Shown here piece after piece: positions 3,239 through 27,702 of a DNA stretch of 29,490 bases. The translations under genes and the position numbers were made by a program. Under the pieces are notes generated by a model. The model had not been told where the DNA came from and searched no databases. It saw only the letters and a list, made by a program, of their open reading frames with translations. This DNA comes from a virus. Numbering within the stretch: the first letter of the stretch is position 1; each line of letters starts with the position of its first letter. The stretch spans positions 1-29,490 of the IMG/VR virus record IMGVR_UViG_3300021962_000458; one strand, written 5' to 3'.

Positions 3239-3469
3239 ATGGCATTATCTGAATCAGTTGAAGCAAGTTTAAAAGAAGCAGAGCAATCTCTGCGTAATGC
3301 ACTTGCGTATGCAGCACGACAAGAACGTCCTATGGTGTGTAGTGTCGTTGCAGATATGATCTCGCGTATTGATACTTTAATGTCAACCGATGCTCTTCTT
3401 GATAAATTAGAGAATCGTAAACCTGGTGACTCTGGTTTTTTTGGAACTATTTTTGGAAAAGATGACTGA
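3239..3469 (+). CDS. small helical hypothetical protein, 76 aa
   Basis: The ATG at 3239 lies 2 bases after the upstream stop; earlier in-frame GTG/TTG codons are less likely. Long amphipathic helices (ASLKEAEQSLRNALAYAARQ) make up most of the protein, followed by a flexible Gly-rich tail. The tail overlaps the next start. No known motif. Confidence 0.66.
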   Translation: MALSESVEASLKEAEQSLRNALAYAARQERPMVCSVVADMISRIDTLMSTDALLDKLENRKPGDSGFFGTIFGKDD

Positions 3470-3818
3470 ATCTAACGATCTTGGTAAAGCACTAAAAGAA
3501 TGGTGGGAATCTGATTCTTTTAAAGAAATGCAGAGAGCAAATGAGGAAGCAAGGCAACGTGCAGTAGGAAAGTATTTTATGCTTTCTGAGCAGGATAAGA
3601 TTGATATGGTAGAAGCAATCACTTACATTATGTGTAAGGCAGAAAGCGAAGGAACTTCTCATCGTGGTCTTCAAGATGCTCTGGGCATTTATCCCACTGG
3701 ATTTTGGGTAGATCATCTTATGGACGTTCATAATGCTCTTTGGTCATATTATAATGATCGTAAAAGAGAACAAGAGCTGAAAGATGATCTTGATTCCTTA
3801 GATAATTTCATTAAATAA
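3462..3818 (+). CDS. helical hypothetical protein, 118 aa
   Basis: Starts at ATGACTGA, overlapping the previous stop. Mostly charged helices, with a central segment SHRGLQDALGIYPTGFWVDH that could be a small helix-turn-helix-like unit. The C terminus is acidic. It ends the first operon: an 84-base AT-rich non-coding stretch follows. Confidence 0.68.
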   Translation: MTESNDLGKALKEWWESDSFKEMQRANEEARQRAVGKYFMLSEQDKIDMVEAITYIMCKAESEGTSHRGLQDALGIYPTGFWVDHLMDVHNALWSYYNDRKREQELKDDLDSLDNFIK

Positions 3819-4141: not shown

Positions 4142-4354
4142 ATGGACAACATCGACCAACATATTCAGAAAGATGAGGATCTTCTGAGTGATCCTCTGAT
4201 TTCTCCACAGTCAAGAAGGCATACTGAGGAAGAATTGGAAGCATTGAAGGCATATAAAGAACATCATCCAGAAGATTTGCACGATCCCACACCTCTTGAA
4301 CTGTATTGTGATACTCATCCTGATGCTGCAGAATGTAAAGTATATGATAACTGA
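4142..4354 (+). CDS. cp12: CP12-like Calvin-cycle regulator, 70 aa
   Basis: The C-terminal half, PLELYCDTHPDAAECKVYD, matches the C-terminal signature of CP12, with the Cys pair C56/C65 spaced as in host CP12. CP12 is an intrinsically disordered redox switch that clamps GAPDH and phosphoribulokinase together through disulfides and so shuts down the Calvin cycle. Phage copies are known auxiliary metabolic genes thought to divert NADPH to nucleotide synthesis. The N-terminal Cys pair of host CP12 is missing and the AWD_VEEL core is only echoed by EEELEALKAY, as in shortened phage versions. An AATAAATA element 22 bases upstream resembles the late promoter. Confidence 0.8.
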   Translation: MDNIDQHIQKDEDLLSDPLISPQSRRHTEEELEALKAYKEHHPEDLHDPTPLELYCDTHPDAAECKVYDN

Positions 4355-4435: not shown

Positions 4436-4972
4436 GTGTTCAACTCAATTTTTGAAGACGGTTCTCTAACCCAATATATTGAACAGAACGCACAGGATCC
4501 ATGGATTGGTACGTCATTTCAGGGTTATGTGTTTATGTCTCCCAAACAAAAAGGTGAGTTTGGTGAACGCTTTGTTTCTAAGTATTTTGAAGCCGCTGGT
4601 CATGAAGTCAAACGTGCAAAGACTTCTACTGCTGGACATGATCGTGTGATTGATAACATTCTTACTGAAATTAAGTTCTCTCTTGCCACCCGTGACAAGA
4701 AAGGTGGTGTGAAAGAAGATCAGTTCATTATCAATCACGTTTCTAAGAATAAAGATTGGGAACGTCTTGTGTTCTTTGGTATTAATAATACTGAAGAAGG
4801 TTCTCGTTTGTTTTGGTTTACAAAAGAGGATTTTTTGAATCACCTGGAATCTAATGATTGCTTGTTTGCTCCACAGCAAGGTGGTAAATCTATCGGAAAT
4901 GATGATTACATTTGTACAAAAGTGAATAATCTGGTAGAATGTAATTTTGTGAAGTCTATTAGCGAATGGTGA
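4436..4972 (+). CDS. PD-(D/E)XK nuclease-like protein, putative restriction endonuclease, 178 aa
   Basis: Reads from a GTG (4436); an ATG at residue 34 is a possible alternative. The core is KGEFGERFVSKYFEAAGHEV followed by D69 (AGHDRV) and E78-I-K80 (LTEIKFSL). This is the helix/strand order of the PD-(D/E)XK fold, with Asp, Glu and Lys in catalytic spacing. Downstream strands WERLVFFGI and RLFWFT fit the rest of the core. It overlaps the DNA methyltransferase gene by 7 bases, the arrangement expected for a type II restriction-modification pair. The fold is fairly sure; its specificity and whether it really cleaves DNA are inference. Confidence 0.65.
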   Translation: MFNSIFEDGSLTQYIEQNAQDPWIGTSFQGYVFMSPKQKGEFGERFVSKYFEAAGHEVKRAKTSTAGHDRVIDNILTEIKFSLATRDKKGGVKEDQFIINHVSKNKDWERLVFFGINNTEEGSRLFWFTKEDFLNHLESNDCLFAPQQGGKSIGNDDYICTKVNNLVECNFVKSISEW

Positions 4973-5733
4973 ATCTTCATCTTGGCGATTGTCTAGATAT
5001 TCTACCGATACTAGATTCCAATTCTGTGGATATGGTGTTGGTAGATCTCCCATATGGGACAACTGCCTGCAAATGGGATTCAATTATCCCATTAGAAAAA
5101 TTATGGGAACAATACAATCGCATCTGCAAAGAAGATGGTGCAATGGTGTTTACTGCAGCACAACCATTCACAACTATACTTGCAGCATCAAATATTAACA
5201 ACTTTCGTTATGAATGGATCTGGGAGAAACCACAGGGAACTAATCCTATGAACGCAAAAGTGATGCCTCTCAAATCACACGAAAACATCCTGGTTTTCTA
5301 TCGCAAAAAACCCACATATAATCCTCAAATGTGGTATTCAACTCCGTACAGTGGTTTCTCATCAGACACCAGCAAGATTGGTGAGGTTTATGGTCAAGCA
5401 CAATCAAAGCATCGTGATAATCCTGATGGGTCAAGATACCCAAAGACAGTTTTGCGATTCAAACAAGAAAAAGGTTTTCATCCTACACAGAAACCAGTAG
5501 ACTTGATGGAGTATTTGATTAAAACATATACCAACGAAGGTGATACTGTTCTTGATAATACAATGGGAAGTGGAACAACTGGTGTTGCCTGTGTGAATAC
5601 GAATAGAAACTTTGTTGGTATTGAAATGGATAGTGAATACTTTAAGATTGCGGAGCAACGCATAGAAGGTGCTGTGCCAGTTATGGAAGTGGACCAGAAG
5701 GCACAGAATCCGCTGCTAGAGGCATTATACTAA
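4966..5733 (+). CDS. beta-class DNA methyltransferase (probable N6-adenine), 255 aa
   Basis: Catalytic motif IV is DLPYG (residues 27-31). The SAM-binding motif I comes later as DNTMGSGTTGVA (about 197-208), preceded by HPTQKP (motif X). This IV-then-I order defines the beta class, with the target-recognition region in between (about 85-170). A DPPY-like DLPY box favours N6-adenine over N4-cytosine. Full length with both ends intact. It would protect phage DNA against host restriction or against the product of the overlapping upstream nuclease gene. The target sequence cannot be read from the protein. Confidence 0.88.
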   Translation: MVNLHLGDCLDILPILDSNSVDMVLVDLPYGTTACKWDSIIPLEKLWEQYNRICKEDGAMVFTAAQPFTTILAASNINNFRYEWIWEKPQGTNPMNAKVMPLKSHENILVFYRKKPTYNPQMWYSTPYSGFSSDTSKIGEVYGQAQSKHRDNPDGSRYPKTVLRFKQEKGFHPTQKPVDLMEYLIKTYTNEGDTVLDNTMGSGTTGVACVNTNRNFVGIEMDSEYFKIAEQRIEGAVPVMEVDQKAQNPLLEALY

Positions 5734-6882: not shown

Positions 6883-6906
6883 TTAATGCCGTCTATTAGA
6901 GTAGAA

Positions 6907-7110
6907 ATGAAGGGACTCATTTATTGTGTCCATTGTATTTCCACAGGAAAGAAATACATCGGACAAACTACACAAATTTTAGAAAAAAGAATAAACAGAC
7001 ACTTTTGCGATAGTGAAAGAACAGACTATCATTTTCATCGTGCCATAAAGAAATATGGAAAAGAAAACTTCATATTTGGTATTGTTGAGGAATGTAATTT
7101 AGAGGAATGA
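6907..7110 (+). CDS. GIY-YIG endonuclease, shortened, 67 aa
   Basis: The catalytic N-terminal module is clear: GLIYCVH (the GIY element), KYIGQTTQ (YIG), a conserved Arg in LEKRINRH and KYGKENFIF. An in-frame ATG at 6886 would add 7 residues. The ORF stops at EECNLEE, just where GIY-YIG endonucleases normally run on with the catalytic Glu segment (E-R-E-x-x-W-I). The catalytic Glu and all DNA-binding repeats are therefore missing. Compare the 276-residue relative on the minus strand at 12259, where this part reads LNEREAYWISHYN. Probably a decaying homing endonuclease remnant. Confidence 0.72.
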   Translation: MKGLIYCVHCISTGKKYIGQTTQILEKRINRHFCDSERTDYHFHRAIKKYGKENFIFGIVEECNLEE

Positions 7111-12258: not shown

Positions 12259-13089
12259 TTAGTTTGCATAGAACCAGTAGTAACCTTTCCAACTGTAATG
12301 ACCAGGATTGCGTAAACTTTTGATCAGTCCACTAGTCTTTGCTCCAGGTGCAATAGATCGTACGGCAAATGCAATTGACTCGTATCTGCCTTCTATTTCT
12401 CCTGTTTTTTTATTTACGGCAAAGACCGCCTTTTTCTTAGGTTTATCTTCCAAAATCTCCCATTTGTACCCATAGGCAGTTCCACCTTTTCTGGCGGCAA
12501 GTAGAATGTTACTATTCTTATTTGCATCGCCCGTAAGAGATTGTGCTGCCATACGAGCATTCTCATAATCAGTACACAATCCAGTTTCTAGATTCTTACC
12601 TCTTATCTTTAATCCTGAATGTTTACCATTACCTCTGTTTTTCTCAGTTAGACAACCCCACGAATTCTTTTTTGATCTTTCTGTTAATGATGTGGATATG
12701 TTTTGTATGCGAGATTCAGTTAATACTTTCTGTGATGCTTTTGTAGATATCTTCTTTTTAGTTTCTTCTGAAAATACAACTTTATCTCCATCACTTGTTG
12801 AGTCTAGAGACTGTACATTATATCCTTCTGCACTTTCAAATGCATTATAATGACTTATCCAATATGCTTCTCTTTCATTTAATAAACTCTCATCACATTC
12901 ATCTATTTCCTGAATACTGAATCTATGATTACCATATTTACGCATTGCGGAATGTAATGGTTTGCTACTCATTCTCATTGCTTCTTGTATGTGTTGTTGC
13001 CAACGCTTATTCATTCCCTGAGTGGTTTGTCCAATGTATTTGTGACCGTTTTCTTTGTTTGTAATTAAGTAAATAATACCTCTACTCAT
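12259..13089 (-). CDS. GIY-YIG homing-type endonuclease with NUMOD-like repeats, 276 aa
   Basis: The only convincing full-length minus-strand gene. Start at MSRGIIYLITN; an upstream in-frame ATG would add 7 residues. The catalytic domain (residues 1-90) has GIIYLI, KYIGQTTQ, the Arg in MNKRWQQH and the Glu in LNEREAYWISHYN. A NUMOD3-like stretch (FSEETKKKIS) comes next, then two NUMOD1-like units (GLCTDYENARMAAQSLTG and EGRYESIAFAVRSI), each ending with an aromatic YGYKWEI or WKGYYWFY strand. These bind DNA in homing enzymes. It lies next to an oxygenase gene remnant, consistent with invasion of that gene. Confidence 0.86.
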   Translation of the reverse strand: MSRGIIYLITNKENGHKYIGQTTQGMNKRWQQHIQEAMRMSSKPLHSAMRKYGNHRFSIQEIDECDESLLNEREAYWISHYNAFESAEGYNVQSLDSTSDGDKVVFSEETKKKISTKASQKVLTESRIQNISTSLTERSKKNSWGCLTEKNRGNGKHSGLKIRGKNLETGLCTDYENARMAAQSLTGDANKNSNILLAARKGGTAYGYKWEILEDKPKKKAVFAVNKKTGEIEGRYESIAFAVRSIAPGAKTSGLIKSLRNPGHYSWKGYYWFYAN

Positions 13090-13335
13090 TTTTATTATGC
13101 TAGACAACACTCTGTATTTATGATATGCAATACTTATTTTATAGTATACAACACTCTTATGGAAAAGTCTGTGGAAATTGTGGAAATTGTGGAAACTATT
13201 GAAAAAACTATAAGTAATGTTTTGTTTTCTTTATAAATATCCGTTCTTATTGTAAGCTTAGTCAACGTACCATAAGACGCGCAGTTTGTCAAGCCCCACG
13301 CCGCCGAAAATTATGAGACCCACACAATCTTATAA
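13090..13335. other. AT-rich non-coding stretch upstream of the minus-strand GIY-YIG gene
   Basis: No convincing gene. It holds a direct repeat ACAACACTCT (13104-13113 and 13148-13157) and a run of three 9-base GTGGAAATT units near 13170. A TATTTATG at 13115-13122 reads CATAAATA on the minus strand and could be a late promoter for the endonuclease. A possible minus-strand sigma70 promoter is TTGACA (13292-13287), 17 bases, TACGTT (13269-13264). A TATAAATA at 13232 on the plus strand has no gene behind it. Confidence 0.4.
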
Positions 13336-14968: not shown

Positions 14969-15053
14969 GGGAGCATGGTGGAATCGGTAGACACACCAGA
15001 CTTAAAATCTGTTGACCGTTAAGGTCGTGGGAGTTCAAGTCTCCCTGCTCCTA
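14969..15053 (+). tRNA. tRNA-Leu (anticodon UAA)
   Basis: 85 bases with all arms of a long-variable-loop tRNA. The acceptor GGGAGCA pairs with TGCTCCT (a G-U pair at the end). The anticodon stem CCAGA/TCTGT encloses CTTAAAA with anticodon TAA. A variable arm with GACC/GGTC is present, and the T arm is GGGAGTTCAAGTCTCCC. The 3' CCA is not encoded. tRNA-Leu(UAA) is frequent in T4-like cyanophages, and the AT-rich late genes would use many UUA codons. Confidence 0.95.
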
Positions 15054-24738: not shown

Positions 24739-24777
24739 ATAAATTTTTAAAATAAAACTGAGTTGAAAAAACATTCA

Positions 24778-25104
24778 ATGGGTAAACACCTGCTCTTAGA
24801 GGTGTATGATGTTGGTTTTGAAGTGATTAATGACGTAGAATCGCTTCAAAATGCAATGCTTAGAGGTATAGAACGTGCAAAAATGACAGTTTTGAACACT
24901 TTTTCGCACTGTTTTTTACCTCAGGGATGCACGGTTGTAATTGCGCTTGCAGAAAGTCACGTTTCTTGTCATACATGGCCAGAAAATGGTTGTATTGCCA
25001 TCGATGTTTATACATGTGGTGAGGGAAATCCTCGTTTAATTGCGCTTGAGTTGTTAAAATATTTAAATTCTAGTAATTATAATATAAGAGAAATAGATCG
25101 TTAA
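24778..25104 (+). CDS. speD: S-adenosylmethionine decarboxylase proenzyme, 108 aa
   Basis: Bacterial-type SpeD: GKHLLLEVYD at the N terminus, then ALAESHVSCHTWPE with S60 as the future pyruvoyl serine, and DVYTCG with the catalytic Cys (C80). The proenzyme self-cleaves between E59 and S60. It makes the aminopropyl donor for spermidine. speD is a known cyanophage auxiliary gene. A TTG at 24763 would add 5 residues (MKKHS), like many family N termini; I keep the ATG. TAAATAAATA runs lie upstream. Confidence 0.9.
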   Translation: MGKHLLLEVYDVGFEVINDVESLQNAMLRGIERAKMTVLNTFSHCFLPQGCTVVIALAESHVSCHTWPENGCIAIDVYTCGEGNPRLIALELLKYLNSSNYNIREIDR

Positions 25105-25764: not shown

Positions 25765-27702
25765 ATGCCTTTTACTAAATTTACTAACTTAGATTTCGAT
25801 CAAATAAAAACCTCAATAAAAGATTATCTTCGTGCAAATAGTAATTTCACGGACTTTGACTTTGAGGGTTCTAATTTTTCAGTCTTAATTGATACTTTAG
25901 CTTATAATACTTATATTACAGCATTTAACTCGAATATGATTGTAAATGAATCCTTTTTGGATTCTGCAACAATCCGAGAAAATGTTGTTTCTTTAGCTAG
26001 AAATATTGGATATGTACCTAAATCTAGGTCGGCGGCAAGAGCAGAAATAAGTTTTAGTGTATCAGTATCTCAAAATTTAAATAATTTACCAATATCTTTA
26101 GAACCTGGTATTTTATGTGTTGGGGATGCAAATGAAACTTCATTTGTCTTTTCCATACCAGAAAGAATTACAGCAATAGTTAAAAATGGTGTTGCAGTTT
26201 TTGGAACAACAGAAAAACCAATCGTAATATATCAGGGATCATACTTATCAAAACGTTTTGTTGTTGATAGTTCATTGGATCAGAGGTTTATATTAGACAA
26301 TCCATTTATCGATACTTCAACAATAGCAGTTTTTGTTAGAGGTGCATCTGAAAGTGGTGGATTGGGTTCTAGATATATTAAAGTTGATAATATTTTAAAT
26401 ATTAATAAGTTTTCGGATATATTCTTATTACAAGAAGTTCAAGATGAAAAATATGAGTTATTATTTGGAGATGGAATATTTGGTAAAAAGTTAGAGAATA
26501 ATTCTATTGTTAATGTATCGTATATTGTCACTGATGGTAGGGATGGCAATGGCGCGTCATTATTTTCTTTCAGCGGTGTTATTACAGACTCGGCAGGAAA
26601 TAGAGTAGTTCCAACCGATTTTATTGATGTTTCTACAGTATCTCCTGCGAAAAATGGAGGTGATATTGAACCATTATCATCAATTAAGTATTTTGCTCCC
26701 AGATTGTATTCTTCGCAGTATAGAGCAGTTACTTCAAGAGATTATGAGGCTATTATTCAACAAATATACCCAAATACAGAATCCGTTTCTGTCGTTGGTG
26801 GAGAAGAATTAGATCCTCCACAATTTGGAAAAGTTGTAATAAGCATTAAGCCCAGAAATGGTAATTACATTTCAGATTTTGAACGTGAAAATATTTTACT
26901 TAATCTAAAACAATATTCAGTTTCTGGTATAAATCAAGAGATAATTGACCTTAAAGTCCTATATGTTGAAATCGATTCTTCAATATACTATGATACATCC
27001 AAAGTTGATAATTCGGACCAGTTAAAAAGTTTAATTATAGATTCTTTACAAAAATATTCGGAGTCACCAGAAATTAATAAATTTGGTGGAAGATTTAAGT
27101 ATAGTAAAATTCTCCAGTTAATTGATAATGTTGATACTAATACAATAACTTCAAATATCACAAAGGTTAAAATTAGAAGAAATTTAAAGGCGTTAATTAA
27201 CCAGTTCTCTCAATATGAATTATGCTTTGGAAATAGATTTCATATAAATGTTGAAGGAAAGAATATAAAAAGTAGTGGATTTTACATTGAAGGATATACT
27301 AATCCTGTATATTTTACTGACATTCCCAATAAAGATTCTAACGGAAATTTGGATGGAAGTGGTAAAGGTTTTATTTCAATAGTCCAAAAACAGGCAGATG
27401 GAAATTATCAAATCATTGGAAAATCTGGTGGTACAGTAGATTACAATAAAGGTGAAATTAATATATTTGGAGTTGTGATAACATCAACAGTTAAACCAAA
27501 TAATGTTATAGAAGTGCAAGCAAATCCAGAGTCTAATGATGTCGTTGGATTAAAAGATCTATATGTTGAATTTGATCTTTCAAATAGTAAGATAAATATG
27601 GTTAAAGATGTCATATCTTCCGGTGAGGATATATCTGGCGTTACTTTTGTAAGAGATTATTACGTATCAAGTTATTCTAATGGAGTATTAGAGAGGCAAT
27701 AA
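25765..27702 (+). CDS. 6: baseplate wedge protein gp6, 645 aa
   Basis: The N part (FEGSNFSVLIDTLAYNTY, then FLDSATIRENVVSLARNIGY) is the gp6 signature. The baseplate-J-like core, YSSQYRAVTSRDYEAII, then QFGKVVISIKP, lies near residues 310-370. Length is close to T4 gp6 (660). gp6 forms the dimer ring that joins the six wedges around the hub. Very AT-rich codon use, unlike the array. Confidence 0.95.
   Translation: MPFTKFTNLDFDQIKTSIKDYLRANSNFTDFDFEGSNFSVLIDTLAYNTYITAFNSNMIVNESFLDSATIRENVVSLARNIGYVPKSRSAARAEISFSVSVSQNLNNLPISLEPGILCVGDANETSFVFSIPERITAIVKNGVAVFGTTEKPIVIYQGSYLSKRFVVDSSLDQRFILDNPFIDTSTIAVFVRGASESGGLGSRYIKVDNILNINKFSDIFLLQEVQDEKYELLFGDGIFGKKLENNSIVNVSYIVTDGRDGNGASLFSFSGVITDSAGNRVVPTDFIDVSTVSPAKNGGDIEPLSSIKYFAPRLYSSQYRAVTSRDYEAIIQQIYPNTESVSVVGGEELDPPQFGKVVISIKPRNGNYISDFERENILLNLKQYSVSGINQEIIDLKVLYVEIDSSIYYDTSKVDNSDQLKSLIIDSLQKYSESPEINKFGGRFKYSKILQLIDNVDTNTITSNITKVKIRRNLKALINQFSQYELCFGNRFHINVEGKNIKSSGFYIEGYTNPVYFTDIPNKDSNGNLDGSGKGFISIVQKQADGNYQIIGKSGGTVDYNKGEINIFGVVITSTVKPNNVIEVQANPESNDVVGLKDLYVEFDLSNSKINMVKDVISSGEDISGVTFVRDYYVSSYSNGVLERQ

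Follow-up and report, generated by a model that had tools for sequence, protein, structure and literature searches.

Overlapping nuclease and methyltransferase genes of a T4-like cyanophage as a probable restriction-modification pair, and the absence of TCGA from many genomes that carry the nuclease alone

Restriction-modification pairs encoded by viruses are a known kind of gene pair. Chloroviruses have adjacent methyltransferase (MTase) and endonuclease genes that are thought to degrade host DNA (PMC7019647), the GATC pair of marseilleviruses spares host DNA and could cut the DNA of rivals (PMC7253447), and a survey of jumbo phages describes modified phage DNA as permitting endonuclease attack on host DNA (PMC7824862). 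Here we describe two overlapping genes, a nuclease gene (4436..4972, plus strand) and a DNA methyltransferase gene, MT1 (4966..5733, plus strand), in IMG/VR virus record IMGVR_UViG_3300021962_000458, a virus contig of 29,490 bases which was analysed as a whole and is called the window below. Gene content and relatives of the window fit a T4-like cyanophage (Kyanoviridae), and Prochlorococcus phage P-SSM7 and Marine virus AG-345-E15 carry the nearest named relatives of the gene pair. In our reading, which we hold at a probability of about 0.8, the genes form a phage-borne type II restriction-modification pair, in which the nuclease most likely cuts unmethylated TCGA and MT1 most likely methylates TCGA.

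Like the chlorovirus pairs, as these are described in the passages cited, the cyanophage pair is virus-encoded, joins an MTase gene to that of an adjacent, putatively site-specific endonuclease, would recognise a short word and may degrade host DNA. However, the chlorovirus pairs belong to a eukaryotic host and their enzymes are packaged in virions, whereas the cyanophage pair has a T4-like setting, overlapping genes, two nuclease families per MTase and a form that lacks both MTase and site. The Marseillevirus GATC pair is likewise virus-encoded with rival viruses as a possible target, but it differs in host, word and context and is reported to leave host DNA undegraded. Solitary restriction endonucleases are known in prokaryotes, where they are discussed as separated or decaying systems (PMC3488263). 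The cyanophage nuclease resembles them in occurring without a cognate MTase gene; unlike them, as that source presents them, it is under purifying selection in genomes without the word. In the open PMC literature (subscription journals being outside this scope) we found no report of a cyanophage nuclease for TCGA or TTAA, of such cyanophage pairs, or of phages without the site of their own nuclease. What appears to be new is the occurrence in T4-like cyanophages, the swapping of nuclease families beside a single MTase, and the form that has neither MTase nor site.

Both genes are intact. The nuclease gene starts with GTG and encodes 178 amino acids, MT1 starts with ATG and encodes 255, and the 7 bases of their overlap (ATGGTGA, 4966..4972, plus strand) include the nuclease stop codon; the coordinates and the overlap given in an earlier sequence-only reading of this DNA were thus confirmed. 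Such an overlap suggests coupled translation. The nuclease is a member of phrog_6927, whose function is not annotated, and it matches the PADLOC profile REase_II PDLC03515 (2.4e-10; 1.4e-22 for the homologue of phage S-ShM2). This profile, and MTase_II PDLC03251 which matches MT1, come from prokaryotic defence systems. No match to the window nuclease was obtained in Pfam or NCBIfam, no sequence relative in PDB and no relative in a scan of genome_contigs with the nuclease alignment, and no plasmid relatives of the S-ShM2 nuclease were found. Over 32 aligned nucleases, down to 31% identity, W23, K39, G40, G43, E44, V58, D69, E78, K80, F113, K130, Q147 and G150 are invariant. They include the putative catalytic residues D69 (codon 4640..4642) and E78-I79-K80 (4667..4675, with E78 at 4667-4669 and K80 at 4673-4675) and the helix glutamate E44 (4565..4567), which would be motif I of the fold; all these codons lie on the plus strand. 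Purifying selection acts on the gene (dN/dS 0.02-0.25, 11/12 pairs giving a value), and solitary nuclease genes in the alignment also keep the catalytic residues and evolve under constraint.

An AlphaFold2 model of the nuclease, built from 27 sequences (window and IMG/VR), has a mean pLDDT of 92.0, and by this predicted fold the protein is a PD-(D/E)XK nuclease. Top Foldseek matches were I-Ssp6803I (E 7.3e-5) and Eco15I/NhoI. A second structural comparison gave Eco15I (Z 10.6, 133 residues, rmsd 5.8), NhoI (Z 10.3, 123 residues, rmsd 3.9), I-Ssp6803I (Z 9.8, 115 residues, rmsd 3.1), 3ndh (Z 9.0, 136 residues, rmsd 4.5) and, below the best restriction enzymes, Hjc (Z 8.6, 102 residues, rmsd 2.7); all 50 of its rows are nucleases, restriction enzymes or others, of PD-(D/E)XK type, which for some of them we presume. 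The predicted fold therefore agrees with the assignment to this class, with D69, E78 and K80, that had been made from the letters, and the three residues are invariant in all 32 sequences. For the best structural matches, I-Ssp6803I and the BisI-family enzymes Eco15I and NhoI, no sequence relation to the nuclease was found. Enzymes of the BisI family require methylated GCNGC (PMC11347163).

The high ranks of I-Ssp6803I and Hjc would also suit a homing endonuclease or Holliday-junction resolvase that just happens to adjoin an orphan methyltransferase, as would the movement of the nuclease gene between genomic contexts. We regard this as very unlikely. No single conserved insertion site, as for a homing endonuclease, accompanies the gene, which sits in several unrelated contexts and in the window is not inside an intron. 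Moreover, the REase_II match, the same overlapping arrangement with MT1 in 50 of the 63 close loci (the other 13 having a different nuclease), and the association of the nuclease with loss of one 4-base word all speak for a restriction enzyme. Loss of a 4-base word is not expected from a long-site homing enzyme or a resolvase.

MT1 matches Pfam N6_N4_Mtase (PF01555; E 2.7e-33) and PADLOC MTase_II (1.6e-84). Its motifs stand in beta order, the catalytic motif IV, DLPYG (residues 27-31; 5044..5058, plus strand), preceding the SAM-binding motif I, DNTMGSGTTG (residues 197-206; 5554..5583, plus strand), which aligns to solved MTases. Motif order and PF01555 match bear out the complete beta-class methyltransferase that had been proposed. 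Because its PDB relatives are DpnA, MboIIA, CcrM and RsrI, the base methylated by MT1 is probably adenine. As a separate observation, the match to the MT1 homologue begins at residue 31-32, just after DLPYG, at five loci (L132, L151-L153 and L133, the last sharing its contig with L012), where about 720-760 bases separate nuclease and MTase; an HNH-like open reading frame (ORF) lies inside this gap in L132 and L151. A group I intron at the interruption was considered and rejected, as the 7 sources searched gave no match to any Rfam intron family.

Linkage of the two genes was followed in the best 80 of 594 candidate stretches encoding MT1 relatives, near copies included and not deduplicated. 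A nuclease stands directly upstream of MT1 in all 63 loci with at least 75% MT1 identity, belonging to the family of the window nuclease (family A) in 50 and to a second family, B, in 13. At 65-75% identity a nuclease, always of family B, is present in 7 of 10 loci (two are without, and one has no room for it), and below 65% in 1 of 7. The window's overlap is the commonest family A junction (32/50 loci), and there are loci at which the family A nuclease is down to 33% identity while MT1 remains at 77%. A scan of genome_contigs with MT1 gave 40 loci, and most of the 25 viewed had no nuclease-like neighbour. Family B nucleases (about 195 amino acids) share no detectable sequence profile with family A. 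The family B model (pLDDT 89.9) matches 3ndh best (Z 9.7 over 162 residues, rmsd 3.8), further matches being Eco15I, NhoI, EcoRV, SwaI and HinP1I, and it has the same predicted PD-(D/E)XK fold as family A. Two nuclease families in the same slot beside one MTase is behaviour expected of a restriction-modification cassette. Taken narrowly, the absence of family A from 13 of the 63 close loci counts against the pairing proposed from sequence, but in each of them family B occupies the place of the nuclease, which favours restriction-modification. Together with the fold, this second family in the same slot supports the restriction-modification reading of the pair.

Not every nuclease has its MTase at hand. 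In S-SSM4, S-SSM6b, S-ShM2 and S-SSM2 the nuclease gene follows a ResIII/DEAD helicase gene and no MTase gene adjoins it; in ACG-2014f it lies among small genes, beside a short N6_Mtase-like ORF; and MT1 is also missing at many IMG/VR nuclease loci, at three of which (L056, L058, L060) a different MTase, P0003, with motif I ahead of motif IV, lies 4 bases downstream of the nuclease. Elsewhere in the genome an N6_N4 MTase is present in S-SSM4, S-SSM6b, S-BM3 and ACG-2014f, and a genome-wide N6_N4 MTase search found none in S-ShM2 and S-SSM2. Thus the pairing put forward by the sequence-only reading is supported, but the nuclease is not tied to an MTase throughout, for several cyanophage lineages carry it alone. 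On the nuclease tree, which joins long branches and is therefore used only for its count of changes, the MT1-free state calls for 5 changes, and well supported branches force 2 of these. The ResIII/DEAD helicase was rejected as a type I or III component, being found in 12 of 14 nuclease-free cyanophages too.

A restriction enzyme on its own would be fatal to the phage that encodes it if the site were present, and short words were therefore counted, with expectations from the numbers of 3-mers and 2-mers in the DNA concerned; figures below are found/expected. Of 14 records in which the nuclease has no MT1 next to it, TCGA is absent from 9 (S-SSM4, with 0/330, and G003, G005, G008, G010, G011, G012, G014 and G015) and is reduced in three more (G013 3/11, G016 13/32, G017 5/25). 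It is at zero in none of 15 records with MT1 (window 40/72, P-SSM7 259/340), some of which are low (G024 3/72, G025 7/53, G026 1/39, G023 5/38). Among 14 cyanophages checked to be free of the nuclease, with 20 or 40 kb counted in each, TCGA is avoided in none (808/1026 in total). This pattern is unique among the 136 canonical 4-mers, and none of the 5-mers examined behaves like TCGA; a comparison with gapped palindromes (TCGA 0 vs 691) is discounted, since its records were picked for being at zero.

New loci were obtained by a scan with the S-SSM4 nuclease. All seven without MT1 have no TCGA (L337 0/8, L338 0/4, L339 0/16, L340 0/7, L356 0/30, L358 0/6, L359 0/5), although L337-L340 and L358 look like one lineage and the contig of L359 ends near the gene. 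New loci with MT1 keep the word (L353 30/49, L355 16/43, L357 26/45, L361 25/36; L353 and L357 are in contigs already counted). Values were 12/20, 4/26 and 2/10 where the nuclease is at a contig end (L360, L363, L366) and 19/24 in the distant L364/L365. After deduplication (loci merged at 95% over 1.5 kb, at least 8 expected TCGA required, and 4 family A and 2 family B groups whose contig ends just past the nuclease excluded), family A groups are devoid of TCGA in 13 of 20 cases without MT1 vs 6 of 55 with MT1, and family B groups in 5 of 16 cases without MT1 vs 1 of 29 with it. By a simple motif rule, 10 of these 16 family B groups have another MTase-like ORF within 3 kb and 1 of the 10 is at zero; of the 6 that have none, 4 are at zero. 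Absence of TCGA in carriers without MTase points to TCGA as the likely specificity of the nuclease. In four family B loci without MT1 (L418-L421) another word, GATC, is rare or absent (3/72, 10/70, 0/76, 0/37).

Several points weigh against our reading. Fold alone cannot tell a restriction enzyme from a homing endonuclease or resolvase. ACG-2014f (335/416) and G001 (25/51) keep TCGA with a nuclease and no adjacent MT1, and are unexplained unless another enzyme protects them; ACG-2014f holds other MTases, and G001 is a fragment. In G006 another MTase adjoins the nuclease and TCGA is still at 4/54, and many MT1 carriers are also depleted (643/1406 in 55 groups, of which 6 are at zero); neither the depletion in G006 nor that in many MT1 carriers is explained by the model. 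In the MT1 carriers it may reflect an MT1-free past or a cost of imperfect methylation. Finally, MT1-free groups are not independent of one another.

Depletion in MT1 carriers would also suit avoidance driven by some cyanobacterial hosts, which would own a TCGA-cutting system that phages escape by MT1 or by loss of TCGA, with the nuclease as an unrelated passenger. Phages widely avoid the sites of host systems, according to the part of the literature drawn on here (PMC6286503). Moreover, nearly all of the cyanophages tested have next to no CCGG, which is at zero in 13 of 14 nuclease-free ones; avoided nearly everywhere, it is uninformative on the nuclease, but it means that words vanish through other forces too. 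However, TCGA itself is kept by all 14 nuclease-free cyanophages, and phages of the same host, as written in the phage records, differ with the nuclease. With host WH8109, TCGA is 0/140 in S-SSM6b, which has the nuclease, 137/152 in Syn19 and 99/105 in S-SSM7. With host WH8102, TTAA is 0/146 in S-SSM2, which has a nuclease of the S-ShM2 type, and 176/208 in S-SSM5. This second subfamily, about 31% identical to the window nuclease, pairs with TTAA as its own word (S-ShM2 0/590, S-BM3 76/552, L334 0/31, L335 6/40, L336 1/95), and TCGA is normal in the same five. A match of nuclease and word for both TCGA and TTAA is not easily produced by host restriction, and we consider host-driven avoidance improbable as the cause.

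Other words are missing from other cyanophages. P-SSM7 is without CGCG and GCGC as well. Among nuclease-free phages, GTAC is 0/222 in S-SM1 (L319, L440-L442) and 0/239 in Syn1 (L324, L332, L443, L444), with 80 kb counted in each of these two, and CTAG is 0/122 in the likewise nuclease-free S-SM2 (L318, L445-L447). In S-SM1 the position occupied in S-ShM2 by the nuclease is taken by SSM1_072, a 170-amino-acid ORF with an ESK motif, 2 bases after the helicase gene; no family was matched by SSM1_072.

Under the restriction-modification reading, MT1 would mark TCGA in phage DNA, and the nuclease would cut unmodified TCGA in the DNA of the host or of rival phages. In several MT1-free lineages TCGA would have been lost from the genome, and the phage would be immune for want of a target, because its genome is without TCGA. 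Self-cutting early in infection may be avoided most simply by marks laid in the previous host. As target, host DNA (takeover and nucleotide recycling) seems somewhat likelier to us than rival phages.

That the pair is real but serves exclusion of rival phages or maintenance of its own cassette, and not destruction of host DNA, is a possibility we take seriously, though we would not bet on it. All 14 nuclease-free cyanophages tested keep TCGA and would be vulnerable to exclusion. However, degradation of host DNA is the role given to the chlorovirus enzymes, and they are reported not to be the cause of exclusion in that case (PMC7019647). Self-maintenance is opposed by the phages that have neither MT1 nor the site; there, loss of the cassette would be harmless, so that addiction cannot keep it.

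Around the pair, the window encodes CP12 (4142-4354), an S-adenosylmethionine decarboxylase (24763-25104) and a gp6-like baseplate protein (25765-27702). It also has two GIY-YIG endonuclease genes (6886-7110, plus strand; 12259-13110, minus strand) and a single tRNA match (14969-15053). Between 18000 and 22700 the G+C content rises up to 0.55-0.62, vs about 0.38 before and 0.29 after, the GC skew is reversed and ORFs are small. The phage contig of locus L132 carries a cyanobacterial-type tmRNA (3296-3554) and 14 tRNA matches.

With less confidence than for the pair itself, though still on the favourable side, we propose that site-specific restriction enzymes serve T4-like cyanophages as weapons and that self-protection is exchangeable, by a cognate MTase or by a genome of about 180 kb without the target word. 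The missing word would then read out the specificity: TCGA for families A and B, which are unrelated in sequence, TTAA in the case of the S-ShM2 subfamily, and possibly, via further enzymes, GTAC in S-SM1 and Syn1 and CTAG in S-SM2. Cyanophages degrade the host genome in infection, and a fitness model for the podovirus P-SSP7 has its nucleotides reused (PMC2570332, in the passage cited). Cyanophages that degrade host DNA need a cutter that spares their own, and a restriction enzyme together with a methylated or site-free genome would fit this need. If this is true, the missing words of phage genomes would be a map of phage nucleases, and the outcomes of co-infection between cyanophages might be predictable from their TCGA content.
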